A stretch of DNA of 44,564 bases, from assembly GCA_012729975.1 (NCBI GenBank), contig JAAYBW010000115.1:1-44564 (forward strand), read 5' to 3'. A program made the position numbers and the translations under genes. This stretch comes from Clostridiales bacterium. GTDB taxonomy: Bacteria; Bacillota; Clostridia; Oscillospirales; Oscillospiraceae. This document shows, one piece after another, positions 2,302-11,025 of this stretch. Under the pieces are notes generated by a model. That model was not told the origin of the DNA. It saw only the letters and a list, made by a program, of their open reading frames with translations, and did not search any database. Numbering within the stretch: the first letter of the stretch is position 1; each line of letters begins with the position of its first letter.

Positions 2302-3855
2302 TTGGCGGATGAACTAAACGCGATTAAGCTTGTTGATATTACAAAAAGCTTCGGAAACGTTGTTGCCAACAACCGCATCTCGCTGGACGTGAGAAAAGGT
2401 GAGATACTTGCTTTGCTCGGAGAAAACGGCAGCGGCAAAACCACGCTCATGAATATACTTTCGGGTATATATTTTCCCGACGGCGGACGGATATATGTAA
2501 GCGGAAGAGAAGTGACTATACGCTCTCCGAAAGAAGCGTTTGAACTGGGTATAGGGATGATACACCAGCACTTTAAGCTTATCGACGTGCTGACCGCGGC
2601 GGAGAACATTGTGCTCGGTCTGCCGGGCAGTGTCGGCATTAACAGGAAGGCTCTGTTCGCCGAGATAAAAGAGCTGGCCTCTCGTTATGGATTTGAAATA
2701 GATACCGGTAAGAAAATATACGACATGTCGGTATCCGAAAAGCAGACCGTTGAGATAATCAAGGTGCTCTACAGAGGTGCCGACATACTGATATTAGACG
2801 AACCTACCGCCGTGCTGACACCGCAGGAGACCGAAAAGCTTTTCAATGTGCTTCGCAATATGAAAGCAGACGGCAAGGCCATTATCATCATTACCCATAA
2901 GCTCAACGAGGTGCTTGCGGTATCCGACCGCGTATCGATTTTACGCAAAGGGGAATCGGTCGGTACGGTAGATACGGCAAAAACCACGCAGCAGGAGCTT
3001 ACCGATCTCATGGTAGGGCGTCGCGTGAGCCTGGAGATAGATCGGCCGCAGCCTGATGAAAACGCGGTTGAATGCCTTAAAATTGTAGATCTAACCTGCA
3101 AGAGCCCTGAGGGCCACAGAGTGCTCGACAGCGTTAGCTTTTCGCTTTATTCAGGAGAGATACTGGGCATTGCGGGTATTGCCGGAAGCGGGCAGAGGGA
3201 GCTTTGCGAGTCGATAGCAGGCCTGTATCCGGTACATGGAGGAGCGATTCTCTGCCGGGTACAGTCGCAGGATGGGGACTACAGAGAGAATATTGTAGGT
3301 ATGAAGCCTACCGAGATAATTAAAAGGGGAGTTGCAATGGCATTCGTCCCCGAGGACAGGCTTGGCATGGGCCTTGTGGCCTCGATGGATATGACTGACA
3401 ACATGATGCTCAAGAGTTATCGCAGCGGCAAAGGTATATTTACGGACAGAAAGACACCGCGCGCGATGGCTGAAAATCTCATTAAACGTCTGGATATCGT
3501 AACGCCCGGCGTTTCAACTCCGGTAAGGCTTCTTTCAGGCGGAAACGTTCAGAAAGTGCTTGTAGGGCGTGAGATCGCTTCAAGTCCTTCGGTTCTTGTG
3601 GTTGCATATCCGGTGCGCGGTCTTGACATAAATTCATCATATACGATATACGACCTGCTAAACGAGCAGAAAAAGAAAGGCGTTGCCGTGCTGTTCATAG
3701 GGGAGGATCTTGACGTTCTTATGGAGCTCTGCGATCGTGTAATGGTTCTATGCGGCGGCAGAGTGACCGGAATAGTTGATCCGAAAAGCACAACAAAGGA
3801 GCAGATTGGGCTGCTTATGGCAGGAGCGGGCTCGGGAAAGGCGGCGAGCAGCTGA
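2302..3855 (+). CDS. ABC importer ATPase, BMP/nucleoside family (NupO-like)
   Basis: Twin-cassette ATPase, 517 aa, that powers a BMP-type (basic membrane protein) importer; relatives carry purine nucleosides. Cassette 1 has Walker A GENGSGKTT at residue 40 and Walker B ILILDEPT with D166/E167. Cassette 2 has the family's usual lysine-free P-loop (GIAGSGQREL) and a normal signature LLSGGNVQK. Cassette 1 has SVSEKQ in the signature position and cassette 2 has AYPVRGLD where AQPTRGLD is usual. The start is TTG at 2302 with GGAGG at 2290-2294, 7 nt upstream. The stop overlaps the next ATG (TGATG), so it is translationally coupled to the permeases. The neighbouring xpt favours a purine substrate, which is inference. 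Confidence 0.9.
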   Translation: MADELNAIKLVDITKSFGNVVANNRISLDVRKGEILALLGENGSGKTTLMNILSGIYFPDGGRIYVSGREVTIRSPKEAFELGIGMIHQHFKLIDVLTAAENIVLGLPGSVGINRKALFAEIKELASRYGFEIDTGKKIYDMSVSEKQTVEIIKVLYRGADILILDEPTAVLTPQETEKLFNVLRNMKADGKAIIIITHKLNEVLAVSDRVSILRKGESVGTVDTAKTTQQELTDLMVGRRVSLEIDRPQPDENAVECLKIVDLTCKSPEGHRVLDSVSFSLYSGEILGIAGIAGSGQRELCESIAGLYPVHGGAILCRVQSQDGDYRENIVGMKPTEIIKRGVAMAFVPEDRLGMGLVASMDMTDNMMLKSYRSGKGIFTDRKTPRAMAENLIKRLDIVTPGVSTPVRLLSGGNVQKVLVGREIASSPSVLVVAYPVRGLDINSSYTIYDLLNEQKKKGVAVLFIGEDLDVLMELCDRVMVLCGGRVTGIVDPKSTTKEQIGLLMAGAGSGKAASS

Positions 3856-4976
3856 TGGGAGCGAATTCTGAAAAAACAAAACGCGTCCTTTCGCATGCAG
3901 AACCGCTGGTACGTCTGGCAAAACGCAGCGATATGCCGGCTTCAAAAGCCTGGGCTATACGCGTGGCGTCGATAGTTGCGGCGCTTGCCATAGGCGCGGT
4001 GCTTATTGTGGCGCTCGGGCATAACCCCTTTTCTGTTTACGCCGATATGGTGAAGGGTTCGTTTTTTACAAAGACCTCGAGAGTTGAGACGATAAAGATA
4101 GCGATTCCTCTTCTGGGCGCCGCGCTGGCGATAACGCCCGCGTTCAAGATGAAGTTCTGGAACATCGGAGCGGAGGGTCAAATACTGGCCGGAGCGATAG
4201 CGGCCACATATGTCGCGCTGTTCTGGATTGACAAAATGCCCAGACCCGTACTTATTCTCGTGATGTTTATCGCAGGCGCTGCGGCCGGAGGCATATGGGG
4301 AGTTATACCGGCATTGTTCAAAGCCAAATGGGGAATAAACGAGACCCTGTTTACGCTGATGTTCAATTATATCGTGTTAGGCTTTGTTCGTTACCTGCAA
4401 AACGGCCCGTGGAGAGCACCGGCTTCAAGTTTTCCGCAAATCGCGATGATCGGTTTTCAGTCACGTCTGCCGAAGGTGTTTGGAGTTCACATAGGCTGGA
4501 TTATTATTCTGGCGATAACCGTTGCTATGTTCTTTTATCTTAAATACGCAAAACAGGGTTATGAAATATCGGTAGTGGGCGAATCGGTGAAAACCGCGCA
4601 GTACGCTGGCATGAACGTCGGGTGGATAATAATCCGAACCATGTTCATCTCGGGCGCGATAGCCGGAATCGCCGGATTTCTCATCGTGTCGGGCGAGGAT
4701 TTTACGCTGAGCGAGTCAACGGCGGGCGGAGTCGGGTTCACGGCAATAACGGTGGCTTGGCTTTCCAGGCTTAATCCCTTCGTGATGGTATTTATATCTA
4801 TGTTTCTTGCCACATTATCCAAGGGATCAAACACGATACAAACAAACTTCAAGATACCTGCTTCAGCGGCGGAGGTTTTAACCGGCATTATACTCTTCTG
4901 CATGCTCGGCTGCGAATTTTTTATTAATTATAAACTGATATTCAGGCACAGAAAGGGAGATGAAGCCGGTGTATAA
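3855..4976 (+). CDS. BMP-family ABC importer permease 1 (NupP-like)
   Basis: Integral membrane subunit, 373 aa, with about nine to ten hydrophobic segments after a roughly 30-residue polar N-terminus. Family sequence features include MKFWNIGAEGQILAGAI and GYEISVVGESVKTAQYAGM, the latter resembling the cytoplasmic loop that docks to the ATPase. The ATG overlaps the ATPase stop codon. It probably pairs with the second permease (next gene) as a heterodimer, as in NupP-NupQ. Substrate by family and context: purine nucleosides or a related compound. Confidence 0.9.
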   Translation: MGANSEKTKRVLSHAEPLVRLAKRSDMPASKAWAIRVASIVAALAIGAVLIVALGHNPFSVYADMVKGSFFTKTSRVETIKIAIPLLGAALAITPAFKMKFWNIGAEGQILAGAIAATYVALFWIDKMPRPVLILVMFIAGAAAGGIWGVIPALFKAKWGINETLFTLMFNYIVLGFVRYLQNGPWRAPASSFPQIAMIGFQSRLPKVFGVHIGWIIILAITVAMFFYLKYAKQGYEISVVGESVKTAQYAGMNVGWIIIRTMFISGAIAGIAGFLIVSGEDFTLSESTAGGVGFTAITVAWLSRLNPFVMVFISMFLATLSKGSNTIQTNFKIPASAAEVLTGIILFCMLGCEFFINYKLIFRHRKGDEAGV

Positions 4977-5949
4977 GTTTATTCAGTTTATCTGCGCTAC
5001 AATACTGGCCGGAACTCCGTTCCTATATGGCACCGTGGGTGAGATACTGACCGAAAAATCCGGCAATCTCAATCTCGGCGTTGAAGGCATGATGTTCATG
5101 GGCGGTATTGCGGGCCTCGCCGGCGCTTTTTACTACGAAAAGTTCACGGCAGTACCGATCGGCGGCATCGCGGCGCTTATAGCCGTTGTGTGCGCGTTTT
5201 GTTGTGCCGCGCTCGGAGCGCTTATATACTGCTTTCTGACTATTACTCTTCGCGCGAACCAAAACGTTACGGGCCTTGCGCTGACTATATTCGGTACGGG
5301 CTTCGGAAATTTCTTCGGTGAGGTATTGAGCAGCAGAGCCGGGGGATACGTAGCCGTCAGCGCGGCGACCAAAGCGGTATTCAACGGTAATGTTCCTGTG
5401 CTTTCCTCCATACCTACGGTCGGGAAGCTGCTGTTTTCATATAATTTCGCTGTTTATCTGGCCGTGATAGTGGCAATAGCGATAGCTTTATTTCTAAACA
5501 GAACACGCAAGGGACTTTCCCTGCGCGCGGTGGGTGAAAACCCCGCGACCGCGGACGCGGCGGGAATTAACGTGACGCTTTACAAATACCTCGCAACCTG
5601 CATAGGCGGTGGTATCTGCGGAATCGGCGGAATGTATATTGTAATGGTGACCTGCTCGGGCGTATGGGTGAATAACTGCATAAGCGGCTACGGATGGATA
5701 GCGGTGGCACTGGTAATATTCGTGACATGGAGTCCCTGGCGCGCTCTTATCGGCTCGTTCATTTTCGGCGGACTGTCGGTGCTAAGGTATTACCTGCACC
5801 TGGGTTTGAACAACGCGCAGTCGCAGCTGTACGACGTGGTTCCCTACGCGGCAACCGTAATAGTGCTTATAATAACGGGGATAAGACAGTCGCGGGAGCA
5901 CGCCATACCGGCAAGCTGCGGAGAGAATTATTTCCGGGAGGAAAGATAG
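4969..5949 (+). CDS. BMP-family ABC importer permease 2 (NupQ-like)
   Basis: Second membrane subunit, about 326 aa. It contains the hallmark LTEKSGNLNLGVEGMMFMGG near the N-terminus and GLSLRAVGENPATADAAGI in the ATPase-docking loop. An ATG lies at 4960, but GGGAG (4955-4959) abuts it. The same ribosome site is 9 nt from the in-frame GTG at 4969, which I prefer, giving VYKFIQF as the N-terminus. It overlaps the first permease's end by 8 nt. Last gene of the operon, followed by a strong hairpin. Confidence 0.88.
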   Translation: MYKFIQFICATILAGTPFLYGTVGEILTEKSGNLNLGVEGMMFMGGIAGLAGAFYYEKFTAVPIGGIAALIAVVCAFCCAALGALIYCFLTITLRANQNVTGLALTIFGTGFGNFFGEVLSSRAGGYVAVSAATKAVFNGNVPVLSSIPTVGKLLFSYNFAVYLAVIVAIAIALFLNRTRKGLSLRAVGENPATADAAGINVTLYKYLATCIGGGICGIGGMYIVMVTCSGVWVNNCISGYGWIAVALVIFVTWSPWRALIGSFIFGGLSVLRYYLHLGLNNAQSQLYDVVPYAATVIVLIITGIRQSREHAIPASCGENYFREER

Positions 5950-5963
5950 CTTTAACAGTTATA

Positions 5964-6003
5964 AAAAGTTAAGCGGAGGGCTGTGCGAGCCCTCCGCTTC
6001 AGT
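5964..6003. terminator. bidirectional intrinsic terminator
   Basis: A perfect 12-bp stem AAGCGGAGGGCT (5971-5982) / AGCCCTCCGCTT (5988-5999) with a 5-nt loop lies between the convergent permease and xpt genes. The T-rich tail is best on the minus strand (AACTTTTTAT), so it mainly ends the xpt transcript. Confidence 0.8.
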
Positions 6004-6016
6004 TATATAGAGTTGA

Positions 6017-6586
6017 TTACTTTCTGAAAACAATACCGTTATCCGTTGACTCGATGAGTGCAAGCGACTCAAGGTGTATGCCGGAAGCGCGGAGCTTGTC
6101 TCCTCCCGACTGAAAACACTTCTCGACCGCGATACCGACGCCCACCAGAGAAGCGCCTGCCTGGTTAACGATTGATATAAGGCCGCTTGCGGCTTCTCCG
6201 TTTGCAAGAAAATCATCGATTATCAGCACGCGATCAGAGGGCGAAATGTATTTTTTGTTCACCGTAATCTCCGAGACGCTTCCATGTGTAAAAGAGACCA
6301 CCGACGCGGTGTAAACATCCTTATCCATGTTCCTCGCGCCCGCTTTTTTCGCGAATACGACGGGAACCTCGAAAAACTGAGCGGTTACACAGGCGATGCC
6401 TATTCCGGATGCTTCTATGGTCAATATGAGACTGACGTTATCTGAACTGAAAAGGCGGAAAAACTCGGCTCCCATCTCTCTGTAAAGGCACCAGTCAAGT
6501 CTGTGATTTAAAAAGCCGTCTACTTTAACTATACCGCCCGGCCGAACCTCGCCGTTCTCGCGGATCATGTCTTCAAGATACTTCAT
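6017..6586 (-). CDS. xpt: xanthine phosphoribosyltransferase
   Basis: Cytosolic salvage enzyme that converts xanthine and PRPP to XMP. The 189-aa length and sequence track Bacillus Xpt closely: VKVDGFLNHRLD near residues 21-31, TIEASGIG at 56-63, and the PRPP-binding loop VLIIDDFLANGEAA at 120-133. Its ATG overlaps the stop of the upstream BMP-like gene by 4 nt, so the two are one transcription and translation unit. No purine riboswitch precedes the operon, unlike the classical xpt-pbuX arrangement. Next to a BMP importer it points to uptake and salvage of purines. Confidence 0.96.
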   Translation of the reverse strand: MKYLEDMIRENGEVRPGGIVKVDGFLNHRLDWCLYREMGAEFFRLFSSDNVSLILTIEASGIGIACVTAQFFEVPVVFAKKAGARNMDKDVYTASVVSFTHGSVSEITVNKKYISPSDRVLIIDDFLANGEAASGLISIVNQAGASLVGVGIAVEKCFQSGGDKLRASGIHLESLALIESTDNGIVFRK

Positions 6587-8535
6587 GCGCTCGGATTCCT
6601 TTCGGATTTACCGCGGAAGCCCGCGGAGCTGCTGTTATCGGCTATAACGGAGCTTTCGTGCCAGTGAATTCGCTGGATTTCGATAAGAGTAGGCAGATAG
6701 TTGTGTTCAAAGCGCAGGATACCCTTCGTGTCGTACACAGGTCCCTCAAAGGGGTTAAGTAAACCTTGCTTTATAAGGTTTCTGAAGGTGCGAATCAAAC
6801 GGCATGTGGAGTTACCGATAGCCTGATCATTTGTGAAGAGATCCATTATACCTGTTGAAAGGCCCCATCCGAAATGTATCGGATTACCCCCGATATGCTG
6901 GCTTTCAAGAAGGCTTGTGCGGCCGATTATTGCATCGGAGATGACCTTGTCGTAAAAAGGCTCCCAGTCGAAAATTGCGGCGCCCATGGACTCGATAGGA
7001 TAACCGCTTTTTTTATCGAGTCGGTATATCTGAGCAAAAACCTCGGGAAACGCCTTCCTTTCAAGCGGGTTATCGGGAGAGTGGCGGCAGAAGGCCATGT
7101 CGGAGCCGTTTTCGGCGAAATATTTCCTGCCGTCGGTGTGTTCCTGCCAGTCATTAATGCCCTTTAAGCGGAACTCAAGAACCTTAGCGCGCGGATTAAT
7201 GAGTTTTGCGCCGAGAGCAAAAGCATTAATATCATATGTTGGCGAGTGCCTGAATGAAGCGGTGCTCATATATCCGAGAATACCGGTCTCGCTTTGAGCA
7301 GCAGCAAGAATACCGTACAGAAAATCCGCATCGTATTCCTTGCAAAAGTAGGTGTTGAGATTTTTACCTTCGCGGGCTAAATCGCAGTTGAGGACGATCA
7401 TCGAAGGGTTTTCAAGAGCGATGCGCAGAGCGGCTGCTGATTGAGTCGGGGAGGTTGCAAAGAGTATTGCGGGTTCCTTTTTCGCCAGCGCGGCTAAATC
7501 CTCGTATATACCGCCCGGGCCTTCACCGACGTTATATGCGCGATCTGTTATTAGTTTGGATCCGAGTCTGCGTTCTATCCGGTCGATCGCGACCGAGTGC
7601 CATCTGGTCCAGACATAAGTCTCGGGGGTTTTATCAAAGGCAAAGGCGACGCTCAGCGTGGATTGCTTTGCCCTTGCCTTTTTGTCGCTTGGTGCGATCT
7701 CGCGGTCTGAAATCTCGACAGTATCGCGGGAACGCATACCCGCGGCGACCAGAAGCTGCGGATACATGCGCTTTATGTTGCTTTGAAGCTCCCTGGCAGC
7801 GACCTTCCACGGAAAACCGAATATATCGATATATACGTTCAGCGCGTCACCGGTAGTTACGCCGGGGGTGTCGAGACCAACCCTTTTGTAAGCGGCTCGA
7901 AAGGTCCTGTGGATCTGGTTTATAAAGCTCTCGATATCCAAGCCGATTTCCGGATGCTCAGAAAGGAAGTTCTGCGACTTTTTGACAAGATATTTAAAGC
8001 GTCCCTTTTTAGAAAACCATAGATTATCAAAAAACAGGCGTTTGTCATAATCCAGAAATTCGTAGTAAATAGAAATTTCCGTGTTGCTTTCATCGCGCTC
8101 GGGAATGAGCCGGATTACGTCGGCGTTTATGGAGGCCGCACCGACATAATTCAGTATTGATACTCGTTTGTTTCCCTCAAGCACATAGTAGCGGTTTATA
8201 TACTCGTAAACTTTGATGGACTCGCGGATACCTTCCTGAAGCTGGCTGGCGTAAACATTTCGCCACTTAGCCGCAAACTCCGTGTCCTCCGCAAGAAGCG
8301 GCATCCAATTGGCCGCGAAGGAATTGCTGCGCGCGGCCGTACGTGTGCCGATGATCTTGCGCAGCGGTATCTCGTGGTTGCCGAGTTTAATCTCTCCGAG
8401 AATTTCGACTCCTCTGAGCCTGTCATCGAGCACGGGAAGATAGCCTTTGGTCTCGTCGTCTTCATGCTCGGAGAGATATTTTCTGCCGAGTTTTCTGGCG
8501 TTTAGGTAAGCGGTTTTGCTGACCTGATCAGGCAT
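6583..8535 (-). CDS. cytoplasmic ParB-like / BMP-like fusion protein, candidate purine sensor
   Basis: About 650 aa with no signal peptide or lipobox. The N-terminal part (about residues 40-150) resembles a ParB/sulfiredoxin-type fold: I-x-L-x-x-I, then FAANWMPLL, FAAKW, then EGIRESIKVYEYINRYYVLEGNKRVS at about 101-126. A middle helical region follows. Residues about 295-640 look like the BMP ligand-binding domain: PFEGPVYDTKG mirrors VFDGPLYDKDG of the BMP lipoprotein encoded just upstream. An open GTG lies at 8544, but GGGGG at 8545-8549 is 9 nt from the ATG at 8535, which I use. It is coupled to xpt by a 4-nt overlap. A cytosolic BMP domain cannot be an importer's binding protein, so sensing a purine or nucleoside is a reasonable guess, not shown. 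Confidence 0.8.
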   Translation of the reverse strand: MPDQVSKTAYLNARKLGRKYLSEHEDDETKGYLPVLDDRLRGVEILGEIKLGNHEIPLRKIIGTRTAARSNSFAANWMPLLAEDTEFAAKWRNVYASQLQEGIRESIKVYEYINRYYVLEGNKRVSILNYVGAASINADVIRLIPERDESNTEISIYYEFLDYDKRLFFDNLWFSKKGRFKYLVKKSQNFLSEHPEIGLDIESFINQIHRTFRAAYKRVGLDTPGVTTGDALNVYIDIFGFPWKVAARELQSNIKRMYPQLLVAAGMRSRDTVEISDREIAPSDKKARAKQSTLSVAFAFDKTPETYVWTRWHSVAIDRIERRLGSKLITDRAYNVGEGPGGIYEDLAALAKKEPAILFATSPTQSAAALRIALENPSMIVLNCDLAREGKNLNTYFCKEYDADFLYGILAAAQSETGILGYMSTASFRHSPTYDINAFALGAKLINPRAKVLEFRLKGINDWQEHTDGRKYFAENGSDMAFCRHSPDNPLERKAFPEVFAQIYRLDKKSGYPIESMGAAIFDWEPFYDKVISDAIIGRTSLLESQHIGGNPIHFGWGLSTGIMDLFTNDQAIGNSTCRLIRTFRNLIKQGLLNPFEGPVYDTKGILRFEHNYLPTLIEIQRIHWHESSVIADNSSSAGFRGKSERNPSA

Positions 8536-8561
8536 GTTGTCCACCCCCGATGTTTTTCGCT

Positions 8562-8590
8562 ATTTTATCACCGAGCATATAATTTTACAA
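8562..8590 (-). promoter_or_regulatory. SigA-type promoter of the BMP-like fusion/xpt operon
   Basis: Minus strand TTGTAA (8585-8590), 17-nt spacer, TAAAAT (8562-8567). The leader is only about 20 nt, so control by a riboswitch or attenuator is excluded and any regulation must act at the promoter. Confidence 0.6.
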
Positions 8591-8644
8591 GTGCGCCGAC
8601 GTCCTGCAGAGGATTTTGGAAATCCGAGCACATATGTGTAAGTA

Positions 8645-8680
8645 CTAAAAAACCCGGAGACTGTTGCCTCCGGGTTTGAT
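8645..8680 (-). terminator. intrinsic terminator of the BMP lipoprotein gene
   Basis: Minus-strand hairpin with arms AACCCGGAG (8651-8659) / CTCCGGGTT (8668-8676), followed on that strand by a T run, about 30 nt after the stop codon. Confidence 0.85.
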
Positions 8681-8706
8681 AAAGAGATGTATCGTGAAGA
8701 AAATGA

Positions 8707-9885
8707 TCAGCCGAGCTCGTTTATTCCCTGGATAATAGCGCTCCAGGAGGGCGCGGATTGTTCGGCGGACTCGGCGAAGAATTCGCCCTCGGCGACTACC
8801 ACATTTCCGTCCTTGTCATAGAGAGGACCGTCAAAGACATGGATTTCGCCGGAAACAATCTTCGCGGCCGCGGCGTCAATGGCGGACTGAGTGCCCTCGG
8901 CGGCGATTGCGGTGTTAAGCGGGCTCAGATAAACGGCGCCATCGGCATAACCCTTGCACCAATCGGTATCAATGGGTTCGTCTTTTACAACGGCGCTTAC
9001 AGCGTACTTAAGGTATATGCTCCAATCAGCGCGGGCCGAGATAAGCGAAGCTTTGGGGGCGGCGGAAATCATATCGGCATTGTAACCGACCTGCCATACA
9101 CCGTTAGCCTCAGCTGTGGTGGCAGGGGCGGTGGAGTCGGAGTGCTGGGAAATAACGTCGCAGCCGCCGTCAATGAGAGCCTGTGCTACCTGGGCCTCAA
9201 CCGTAGGATCGTTCCAGGAGTTGACATACATTACGTCCATGGTGACATCGGGATTGACGCTCTTCGCGCCGAGATAGAACGCGGTGAATCCGGATATCGG
9301 CTCAGCGAAAGCAAAGGCGGCGACATAGCCGAGTTTGTTGGTTTGTGTTTTAAGACCGGCGGCAATTCCGGCAAGATAGCGGGCTTCAAAAATGGAAACG
9401 AAATAGTTATGCATGTTGGGCAGACCGGAGCCGGCAGCCTGGTAGCCTGTGGCATGGCAGAACTCAACGTCTGGGTATTCGGCCGCAACTGTGAGGCAGT
9501 AGGGCTCGAATCCGAAGCTAGTGGCAAAGATTATGTTGCAGCCGGCTTCAACCAGTTCGCGAAGAGCGGTTTCACACTCGGAACCTTCGGCGACATTGAA
9601 CTTATTAATGACCTGTGACTCACTCAGGCCGAGGTCTGCCATCATTTTCTGAGTGCCGAGGTCGTGGTTGAAAGTATAGCCCATGTCCGAAGGATCGCCT
9701 ATATGGACAAAGCCGACTTTGACATTGGAGAATGTCAGTCCGTTGCCGTCGGGGTCATCCGAGGGGGCGTTTGTAGCGGGAGCGTTTGTAGGCTCAGTGC
9801 CGCCGTTGCCGGGCTTGTTCGAGGAGCAGGCGACAAGAGAGAAAATCATAAGAATGCAAATAAGGAGAGCCAGAAGCTTTTTCAT
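8707..9885 (-). CDS. BMP-family substrate-binding lipoprotein
   Basis: Extracytoplasmic binding protein, 392 aa, for the importer encoded at 2302-5949. The lipoprotein signal is MKKLLALLICILMIFSLVAC with lipobox LVAC and Cys20. A Ser/Asn/Pro/Thr-rich linker follows, then the BMP fold (VGFVHIGDPSDMGYTF near the start of the domain, VFDGPLYDKDGNV near the end). GGAG lies 9 nt before the ATG. It is transcribed separately from the ATPase/permease operon, from its own promoter and with its own terminator. This suits the excess of binding protein over membrane complex. The ligand is probably a purine nucleoside, by family and by the xpt neighbour. Confidence 0.93.
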   Translation of the reverse strand: MKKLLALLICILMIFSLVACSSNKPGNGGTEPTNAPATNAPSDDPDGNGLTFSNVKVGFVHIGDPSDMGYTFNHDLGTQKMMADLGLSESQVINKFNVAEGSECETALRELVEAGCNIIFATSFGFEPYCLTVAAEYPDVEFCHATGYQAAGSGLPNMHNYFVSIFEARYLAGIAAGLKTQTNKLGYVAAFAFAEPISGFTAFYLGAKSVNPDVTMDVMYVNSWNDPTVEAQVAQALIDGGCDVISQHSDSTAPATTAEANGVWQVGYNADMISAAPKASLISARADWSIYLKYAVSAVVKDEPIDTDWCKGYADGAVYLSPLNTAIAAEGTQSAIDAAAAKIVSGEIHVFDGPLYDKDGNVVVAEGEFFAESAEQSAPSWSAIIQGINELG

Positions 9886-9932
9886 TTGTTATACTCCTTC
9901 AATAATAAATGCGGCAGTTTTACGCCTATAAT

Positions 9933-9974
9933 ACGCGAATATAAATATATCTGACGCGAATATAGAAATATCTG
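9933..9974 (-). repeat. tandem 21-bp direct repeat in the bmp leader
   Basis: Two adjacent 21-nt copies (9933-9953 and 9954-9974), identical at 19 of 21 positions. Each begins ACGCGAATATA and ends TATCTG on the plus strand. They lie just downstream of the predicted start point (about 9980) of the lipoprotein gene. The period is two helical turns, as expected for a pair of protein-binding sites on one DNA face. CGGCAG (minus strand, 9977-9972) and CTGCCG (9917-9912) could also close the leader RNA into a stem around the repeats. Confidence 0.75.
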
Positions 9975-9986
9975 CCGAACGCGATT

Positions 9987-10015
9987 ATTTTAATACACAG
10001 GCACCGTATTTGCAA
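9987..10015 (-). promoter_or_regulatory. SigA-type promoter of the BMP lipoprotein gene
   Basis: Minus strand TTGCAA (10010-10015), 17-nt spacer, TAAAAT (9987-9992). This gives a leader of about 95 nt. Confidence 0.6.
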
Positions 10016-10224
10016 GGTTTTTCGGAAAATAGAATAATTTTGTGCATAGTGTATAAGAAACGCATAATTATACAGGATTTAGTGGTACGCAATTAATACG
10101 ATACAAGAAAATGTGCCCGTGAATATTCGGAATTCGCCGAATTCTGTCTTTATCCGAATCCGGCAGAAACCGCGGAGTGTATCTGACGCCGGAATACGGT
10201 CCGCTCCGGCAGTCCGGTTTCGGC

Positions 10225-11025
10225 TTATTTTGAGGGGGTTGACTCAAGGCCCCACATATCAAACAGTTTGGCGTAAAAATGCGGCAGCGGATACTCCAGG
10301 GGAAGCTCAAGAAGATCGTTTGAGTAGGTCATACCGAACCTGGGTGTCTTAAACTGCTCGGCGAGCTCCGGAAGCTTTGCTGCGGGTACGGATAATATAA
10401 CTTCGTCATCACCGGCTCGGGCGCGCTCTCTGTCGCCCGGATCGGGAAATGTAAGCTGGTACTCACCTGAAAGTAAGGGAACGATAGTCGCATAGACGCA
10501 GGAATCGATACCGTCGAAAAAGCTCTTCAAGCATTCGCCGGTCATACCCTTGATTGCGCGAATGATAACGTTCATTTGAGCGGTATTTGAATAAATCACT
10601 GCGACATCGGGCTCAAAAGTACATTTTGTGAGCGGAGTAGTCACAACAGCCTTATACTTGTCAAGGGGCAGACGGGGAAATTCGGTGAAAAACGCGGCGG
10701 CTTTATCCGGATCCTTTATTCCGAGTATTTTTATGACCTCCGTGAAGGTAGGCTGTCCTGGTACGCATTCGACGCAGCCCAAAGCGATAAGCGGATTCCA
10801 GCACCAATGATCTTCCTTTGTCATCGCAACCGTCATGCCGCGGAAGCGGGTGAGGGCTGTGCATTGGCAAAAAGATATATGTTTGCCCAGGTCTTTTTTG
10901 GGGAATACGGCGTTTTCGGGTACATCCTCGAGCCTCTCGCAAAACTTCACCGCGATAGGGTGCGTATTGAGCCTGAGAGCAGTCTGAAGAGCTTCGCCCA
11001 TTCGATTATATTCGGCAGCTTCCAT
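10225..11025 (-). CDS. DUF169 family protein
   Basis: A 266-aa soluble protein of the uncharacterised DUF169 family, recognised by HPIAVKF near residue 22, a cysteine-rich stretch (FCQC, WCWN, LGCVECVPG between about residues 52 and 89), and the C-terminal FKTPRFGMTYSN region. The clustered cysteines hint at a metal or cofactor site, but no function is established. AAGGAG lies about 8 nt before the ATG. It has its own promoter and no co-transcribed partner in the window: the M3 peptidase gene diverges from it. Not evidently linked to the purine genes. Confidence 0.85.
   Translation of the reverse strand: MEAAEYNRMGEALQTALRLNTHPIAVKFCERLEDVPENAVFPKKDLGKHISFCQCTALTRFRGMTVAMTKEDHWCWNPLIALGCVECVPGQPTFTEVIKILGIKDPDKAAAFFTEFPRLPLDKYKAVVTTPLTKCTFEPDVAVIYSNTAQMNVIIRAIKGMTGECLKSFFDGIDSCVYATIVPLLSGEYQLTFPDPGDRERARAGDDEVILSVPAAKLPELAEQFKTPRFGMTYSNDLLELPLEYPLPHFYAKLFDMWGLESTPSK

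Follow-up and report, generated by a model that had tools for sequence, protein, structure and literature searches.

A cytoplasmic ParB/SerK-like–BMP fusion protein encoded beside xpt and a metallophosphoesterase found almost only together with it suggest a sensor-enzyme pair of gut bacteria

The window analysed here is a stretch of 44,564 nucleotides, positions 1 to 44,564 of contig JAAYBW010000115.1 (Clostridiales bacterium, Oscillospiraceae). Its minus strand carries a gene for a fusion protein of 650 amino acids plus stop (6583..8535), assigned from its ATG, its homologues and its conservation; a GTG nine bases upstream of the ATG is another possible start. The gene ends in a 4-nt overlap (ATGA) with xpt, which encodes xanthine phosphoribosyltransferase on the same strand (6017..6586; NCBIfam equivalog NF006671, 242 bits versus a cut-off of 177). 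The overlap had already been reported in an earlier note on this DNA, and an operon is likely. At 8562..8590 (minus strand), 26 bases 5' of the fusion-gene ATG, a site resembles a promoter by consensus match only: TTGTAA-17-TAAAAT, with an extended -10 (TG in front of the second hexamer). Intrinsic-terminator-like hairpins occur on the minus strand 3' of xpt (5971..5999; fold -23.7 kcal/mol, z -6.8) and between the fusion gene and bmp (8647..8677; fold -21 kcal/mol, z -7.9). The bmp gene, upstream of the fusion gene on the minus strand (8707..9885), encodes a BMP lipoprotein assigned as PF02608-type and by purine-pocket alignment, and a nucleoside-type ABC transporter with an ATPase and two permeases (nup; 2302..5949, plus strand; family matches) is convergent with xpt. 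Because the promoter-like site and the terminator-like hairpins flank the pair, the fusion gene and xpt are likely a single transcription unit, with bmp transcribed separately. A DUF169 (COG2043) protein is encoded at 10225-11025, 5' of bmp and on the same strand. No known riboswitch matched at the Rfam gathering level in the window, and nothing relevant appeared at E <= 1 in 5900-10400, which agrees with the earlier observation that a purine riboswitch is absent.

A chance open reading frame is excluded, because fusion homologues are present in 52 of the 295 sampled genomes of the order (searched with an N-domain profile), almost always as a long reading frame uninterrupted by stops. The protein shows no signal peptide (maximum Kyte-Doolittle 19-residue mean 1.13 overall, 0.37 near the N-terminus), and these values support the cytoplasmic location first proposed for it.

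The N-terminal ParB/Srx/SerK-like domain (residues about 47-150; 8086..8397, minus strand) is the most conserved part of the fusion, with a mean identity to the window protein of 51% versus 29% for the BMP part. It was assigned from profile matches and invariant residues, and its matching segment contains, in this order, a Box I helix, a 'Gi..PI.vye' strand and a GxxR motif. The predicted C-motif (Box I) helix (residues 85-101, EFAAKWRNVYASQLQEG; 8233..8283, minus strand) was placed by its ParB-like position relative to GxxR in hhalign and by its invariant residues; E86, F87, K90 and W91 do not vary in 34 diverse homologues, and both AF2 models contain the helix at low confidence. The P-motif (Box II, GxxR), EGNKR (residues 120-124; 8164..8178, minus strand), follows 3' of the helix, is conserved as E-G-[NH]-K-R in fusions and aligns with GERR of ParB (hhalign). 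The EGNKRVS segment, from which the earlier note had proposed a ParB-like fold, proved real: it falls within the most conserved stretch of the family, and E120, G121, K123, R124 and S126 are invariant in the same 34 homologues. The motif reads EG[NH]KRV in fusions versus DG[NH]HRV in relatives that lack the BMP domain.

A profile of the fusion family together with these stand-alone relatives (A6) gave 17 PDB matches, all of ParB, Noc, Srx or SbnI type (Srx 2.6e-5, Noc 7e-4, ParB 1.8e-3, Spo0J 1.9e-3, SbnI 0.009). The NCBIfam models SerK, ParB and Noc each match 15 of 26 family members, weakly; SerK is best (1.1e-6), with family scores of 13-19 bits that do not reach its curated cut-off of 380 bits (NF053625). 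No PDB match was obtained with a profile of the fusion N-domains alone (A3), which does match the stand-alone relatives (down to 2.9e-16), and the window protein's N-domain by itself has no Pfam match. The window protein matches neither PF02195 nor HTH_ParB, and PF02195 is matched by two of the 34 homologues, below cut-off (best E 0.03). With hhalign, ParB proteins of relatives align in the expected register (E 0.01, low probability). Membership of the N-domain in the ParB/Srx/SerK superfamily is supported by the family and its stand-alone relatives taken together. Structure prediction, proposed earlier as a check on both folds, was too low in confidence to serve: two AF2 runs (full length and residues 1-275, each with ten close sequences) gave pLDDT of about 50 overall and below 50 over most of residues 25-170, and neither model was taken into a fold search. 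It is the sequence profiles that assign the N-domain to its fold. No helix-turn-helix or other DNA-binding family was found in the fusion protein, and the earlier proposal of a DNA-binding regulator gained no positive evidence.

The N-domain is followed by a helical middle region (residues 176-285; 7681..8010, minus strand; AF2 helices, pLDDT about 75-92 at 181-264), whose counterpart in the stand-alone relatives resembles DUF4032. The family profile found 20 such relatives without a BMP domain elsewhere in the phylum, and several of about 320 aa carry C-terminal 4Fe-4S ferredoxin motifs. In one group from outside the class (L153-L167), the proteins are of this stand-alone ParB/SerK-like type, several of them with a 4Fe-4S ferredoxin motif at the C-terminus and resemblance to DUF4032, and most of their genes immediately follow a gene of the metallophosphoesterase subfamily described below. 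Shorter fusions of about 565-580 aa occur in family f2 (L062, L068, L076), where the BMP part is diverged and C-terminally truncated and the phosphoesterase is not adjacent. Viral contigs scanned with two profiles yielded no relatives.

The C-terminal part of the fusion is a BMP/PnrA-like (PF02608) domain (residues 290-628; 6652..7668, minus strand; Pfam and profile matches), with an E-value of 3.8e-12 and 46.3 bits against a cut-off of 24.1. PF02608 is matched by all 34 diverse fusion homologues, and residues 292-606 share 28% identity with the neighbouring BMP lipoprotein (7.5e-13), in line with the similarity noted at the outset. The nearest solved relatives are 3s99 and AtzT (about 1e-61, profile), followed by Med/2hqb (9e-10). 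Given the PF02608 match and the transporter nearby, one could take the fusion for a normal binding protein of a transporter that carries an unusual N-terminal extension, either because its start is wrongly called or because it leaves the cell by some other path. However, the signal peptide and hydrophobic N-terminus expected of an exported lipoprotein serving an ABC transporter are absent, no nucleoside transporter is conserved beside the homologues, the N-terminal extension is present in 34/34 aligned homologues as their most conserved part, and relatives without the BMP domain exist. We regard this explanation as very improbable.

In the periplasmic binding protein AtzT, guanine is sandwiched by Tyr45 and Trp194 and contacted by Ser97, Phe98 (backbone), Glu165, Asn218 and Asn220 (PMC6834077). 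The clamshell domain of AtzT (PDB 6pi5, guanine bound) and of the Brucella BMP 3s99 (adenine modelled) is common to the fusion, which differs in having no signal peptide and a ParB-like domain in front. We mapped six AtzT positions (45, 97, 165, 194, 218, 220) by alignment. They read W,S,E,W,H,D in 3s99 and Y,S,E,W,H,D in the window BMP lipoprotein; the latter has a complete 3s99-type pocket and is therefore likely a purine-base importer component. In the window fusion the positions read W,S,S,I,P,N, with insertions that make the alignment uncertain around 165-220. The stacking aromatic and the serine (W309, S362) are retained and N489 lies at the Asn220 position, but the equivalents of Glu165, Trp194 and Asn218 appear changed. 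These changes are not proof that purine binding was lost, because the alignment near 165-220 carries those insertions. Among the 68 fusions compared, 10 retain five or six pocket positions, nearly all of them class-level relatives such as L138-L152; the L148 fusion reads W,S,E,W,H,N (alignment). In one set of loci (L138, L142, L143, L146-L152) the BMP part mostly has a full or nearly full purine pocket, the phosphoesterase gene faces the fusion gene convergently instead of running in the same direction, and some loci adjoin rpoB/rpoC-like genes. Most simply read, the fused BMP domain descends from a purine-binding protein, and its specificity was altered in several lineages, that of the window included.

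Its place beside the salvage enzyme and the importer had led to the proposal that the fusion is an intracellular purine sensor for purine salvage, which would bind a purine and control expression of xpt, bmp or nup, or the activity of Xpt. Consistent with this idea are the 4-nt overlap within an apparent promoter/terminator unit of its own, the bmp gene with its intact purine pocket and the nup genes alongside, and the one clade with a full pocket. We compared 68 fusion and 20 stand-alone loci, which are not independent and are mostly the best matches of each search. Outside the window, xpt was found beside the fusion gene only in one relative (L034), 24 nt downstream. Queried for these genes, the other order-level loci examined showed no xpt, bmp or nup next to the fusion, and none recurs among the clustered neighbours of all loci; as conserved partners the three were rejected on these surveys. 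A general association with purine genes, whose lack the earlier note had named as refuting its reading, thus did not hold for most homologues, and the purine claim is weakened accordingly. We observed guaB near the fusion in three f7 loci (L043, L045, L047) and purA near it in four close relatives (L072-L075), a weak, clade-bound purine association. The purine-gene neighbours in the window are mostly local. Since the purine sensor also has to contend with mostly changed pocket residues in the window clade, the failure to find a DNA-binding domain and the terminator-like hairpin that separates bmp from the fusion gene, we consider it unlikely.

The one recurring neighbour among the 68 fusion and 20 stand-alone loci is a calcineurin-like metallophosphoesterase of a single subfamily, about 200 aa long. 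All 22 members compared match PF00149/PF12850, their metal-ligand motifs are invariant (D8, GD33-34, GNH56-58, H129, G164-H165-x-H167), and the closest proteins of solved structure, MPPED2 and lariat-debranching enzymes, match only weakly. The phosphoesterase gene is adjacent in 48 of the 68 fusion loci, most often as the next gene downstream, with a 4-nt overlap or after a short gap; in ten it is convergent and in three upstream. It also adjoins 14 of the 20 stand-alone loci, where it is upstream in 13. It is not adjacent in the window clade, in most of f7 or in f2. The same partner thus recurs in different layouts, and a functional link is therefore favoured over inherited order. The window genome has the phosphoesterase too, unlinked at C28:3516-4106; it is invisible in the window because the gene sits on another contig. 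There it lies between alcohol-dehydrogenase-like and flavin-reductase-like genes, and a similar reductase-like gene is also near the phosphoesterase in another genome (G222).

A phosphoesterase profile run on the same 295 genomes (E <= 1e-20) detected the gene in 54. Both genes are present in 51 genomes, the fusion only in one, the phosphoesterase only in three and neither in 240 (Fisher p 2e-52, phylogeny ignored). The sole fusion-only genome (G147) is 47% complete. Of the phosphoesterase-only genomes (G260, G025, G216), the copies in G025 and G216 score lower, and the lone copy in G260 sits close to the start of its contig, where no piece of a fusion gene precedes it. Moreover, presence and absence of the two genes shift together inside genera: in g2 two genomes have both (G125, G194) and two neither (G013, G289), in g11 one has both (G275) and one neither (G204), and in g18 five have both and one neither (G001). 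Co-occurrence does not show interaction. It suggests that the fusion protein and the phosphoesterase, found almost only together across many gut bacteria, are an undescribed sensor-enzyme pair. The idea of a sensor or switch survives in this form with a different partner, one that the earlier note overlooked because it is unlinked in the window genome. The conserved unit would be the ParB/SerK-fold domain plus the phosphoesterase, with a tail that varies by lineage, BMP in this class and ferredoxin-like in several relatives outside it, where the BMP module is absent. The variable tail looks like an input module.

From the observed domain content, conservation, adjacency and genome co-occurrence we infer nucleotide binding, a ligand, coupling, physical interaction and enzymatic roles as follows. 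The N-terminal ParB/Srx/SerK-fold domain, followed by its helical region, would bind a nucleoside tri- or diphosphate via GxxR. The C-terminal BMP-type clamshell, which lacks an export signal, would detect a cytoplasmic small molecule, ancestrally perhaps a purine base; the pocket appears changed in the window lineage, where the ligand is uncertain. Ligand on the BMP half may set the nucleotide state or the enzymatic activity of the N-module. In turn, the N-module and the phosphoesterase may form an opposed pair, phosphate transfer versus hydrolysis, or the N-module may be a switch that controls the phosphoesterase. The link to xpt may give the fusion of the window lineage an additional or a substitute partner, and Xpt could be an alternative one. 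That the fusion is a cytoplasmic ligand-sensing ParB/SerK-fold protein acting with the phosphoesterase, its sensor module exchangeable, has in our judgement about an even chance of being right. A more specific form, in which a nucleotide-dependent ParB/SerK-fold protein with an exchangeable BMP or ferredoxin-like tail is coupled, as an undescribed kind of cytoplasmic signalling or metabolic pair, to a dedicated phosphoesterase that makes or destroys a particular nucleotide-type metabolite or second messenger, is possible, though clearly short of an even chance.

The N-module could act like ParB and Noc, which are switches, or like SerK and SbnI, which are kinases. Were it a SerK-type small-molecule kinase, its substrate, for example a nucleoside, would be delivered or selected by the BMP domain and the phosphate removed by the phosphoesterase. 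SerK as the best NCBIfam match, SbnI among the PDB matches and a phosphoesterase as the constant partner all fit such a kinase. However, scores lie far under the SerK curated cut-off, the motif itself changes between fusions (EG[NH]KR) and stand-alone relatives (DG[NH]HR), and the domain may be a mere switch. We judge the kinase rather improbable.

ParB, Noc and Spo0J, with their CTPase fold, agree with the fusion in how the Box I helix and GxxR are ordered and spaced, whereas the fusion falls below the PF02195 cut-off, has no detected helix-turn-helix and is partnered by a phosphoesterase instead of ParA. The free-serine kinases SerK and SbnI belong to the same superfamily as the N-domain, but the fusion family, besides its distance from the curated cut-off, has a BMP or ferredoxin-type tail. 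SerK, annotated as ParB, is an ADP-dependent serine kinase (PMC5120207). Med, the 'transcriptional activator of comK gene' (PDB 2hqb), is a BMP-type protein named as a regulator and not for transport; however, it is a 296-residue chain that matches only the BMP part of the fusion, leaving the ParB-like domain unmatched, and it has other partners. The survey by Kaljevic et al. 2025 established that lineage-specific domains have been joined to the ParB-CTPase fold many times over and that CTP, ATP or GTP is bound by this fold (PMC12704722). That survey was seeded with PF02195, which mostly misses the present family, and its main text does not mention periplasmic/BMP, ferredoxin or phosphoesterase (PMC12704722). 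ParB-fold fusions to other domains are thus already known; our literature search found no description of the ParB-like/BMP/phosphoesterase combination, an absence that is not proof of novelty.

The database matches make it likely that proteins of this kind are recorded just as BMP-family transport proteins. If the proposed reading is true, gut bacteria would widely possess a cytoplasmic switch or enzyme that responds to a ligand and comes with its own phosphoesterase partner. The ParB fold would then gain a small-molecule-sensing role, open to direct testing with two soluble proteins, and the constant phosphoesterase partner would offer a concrete route to the substrate.
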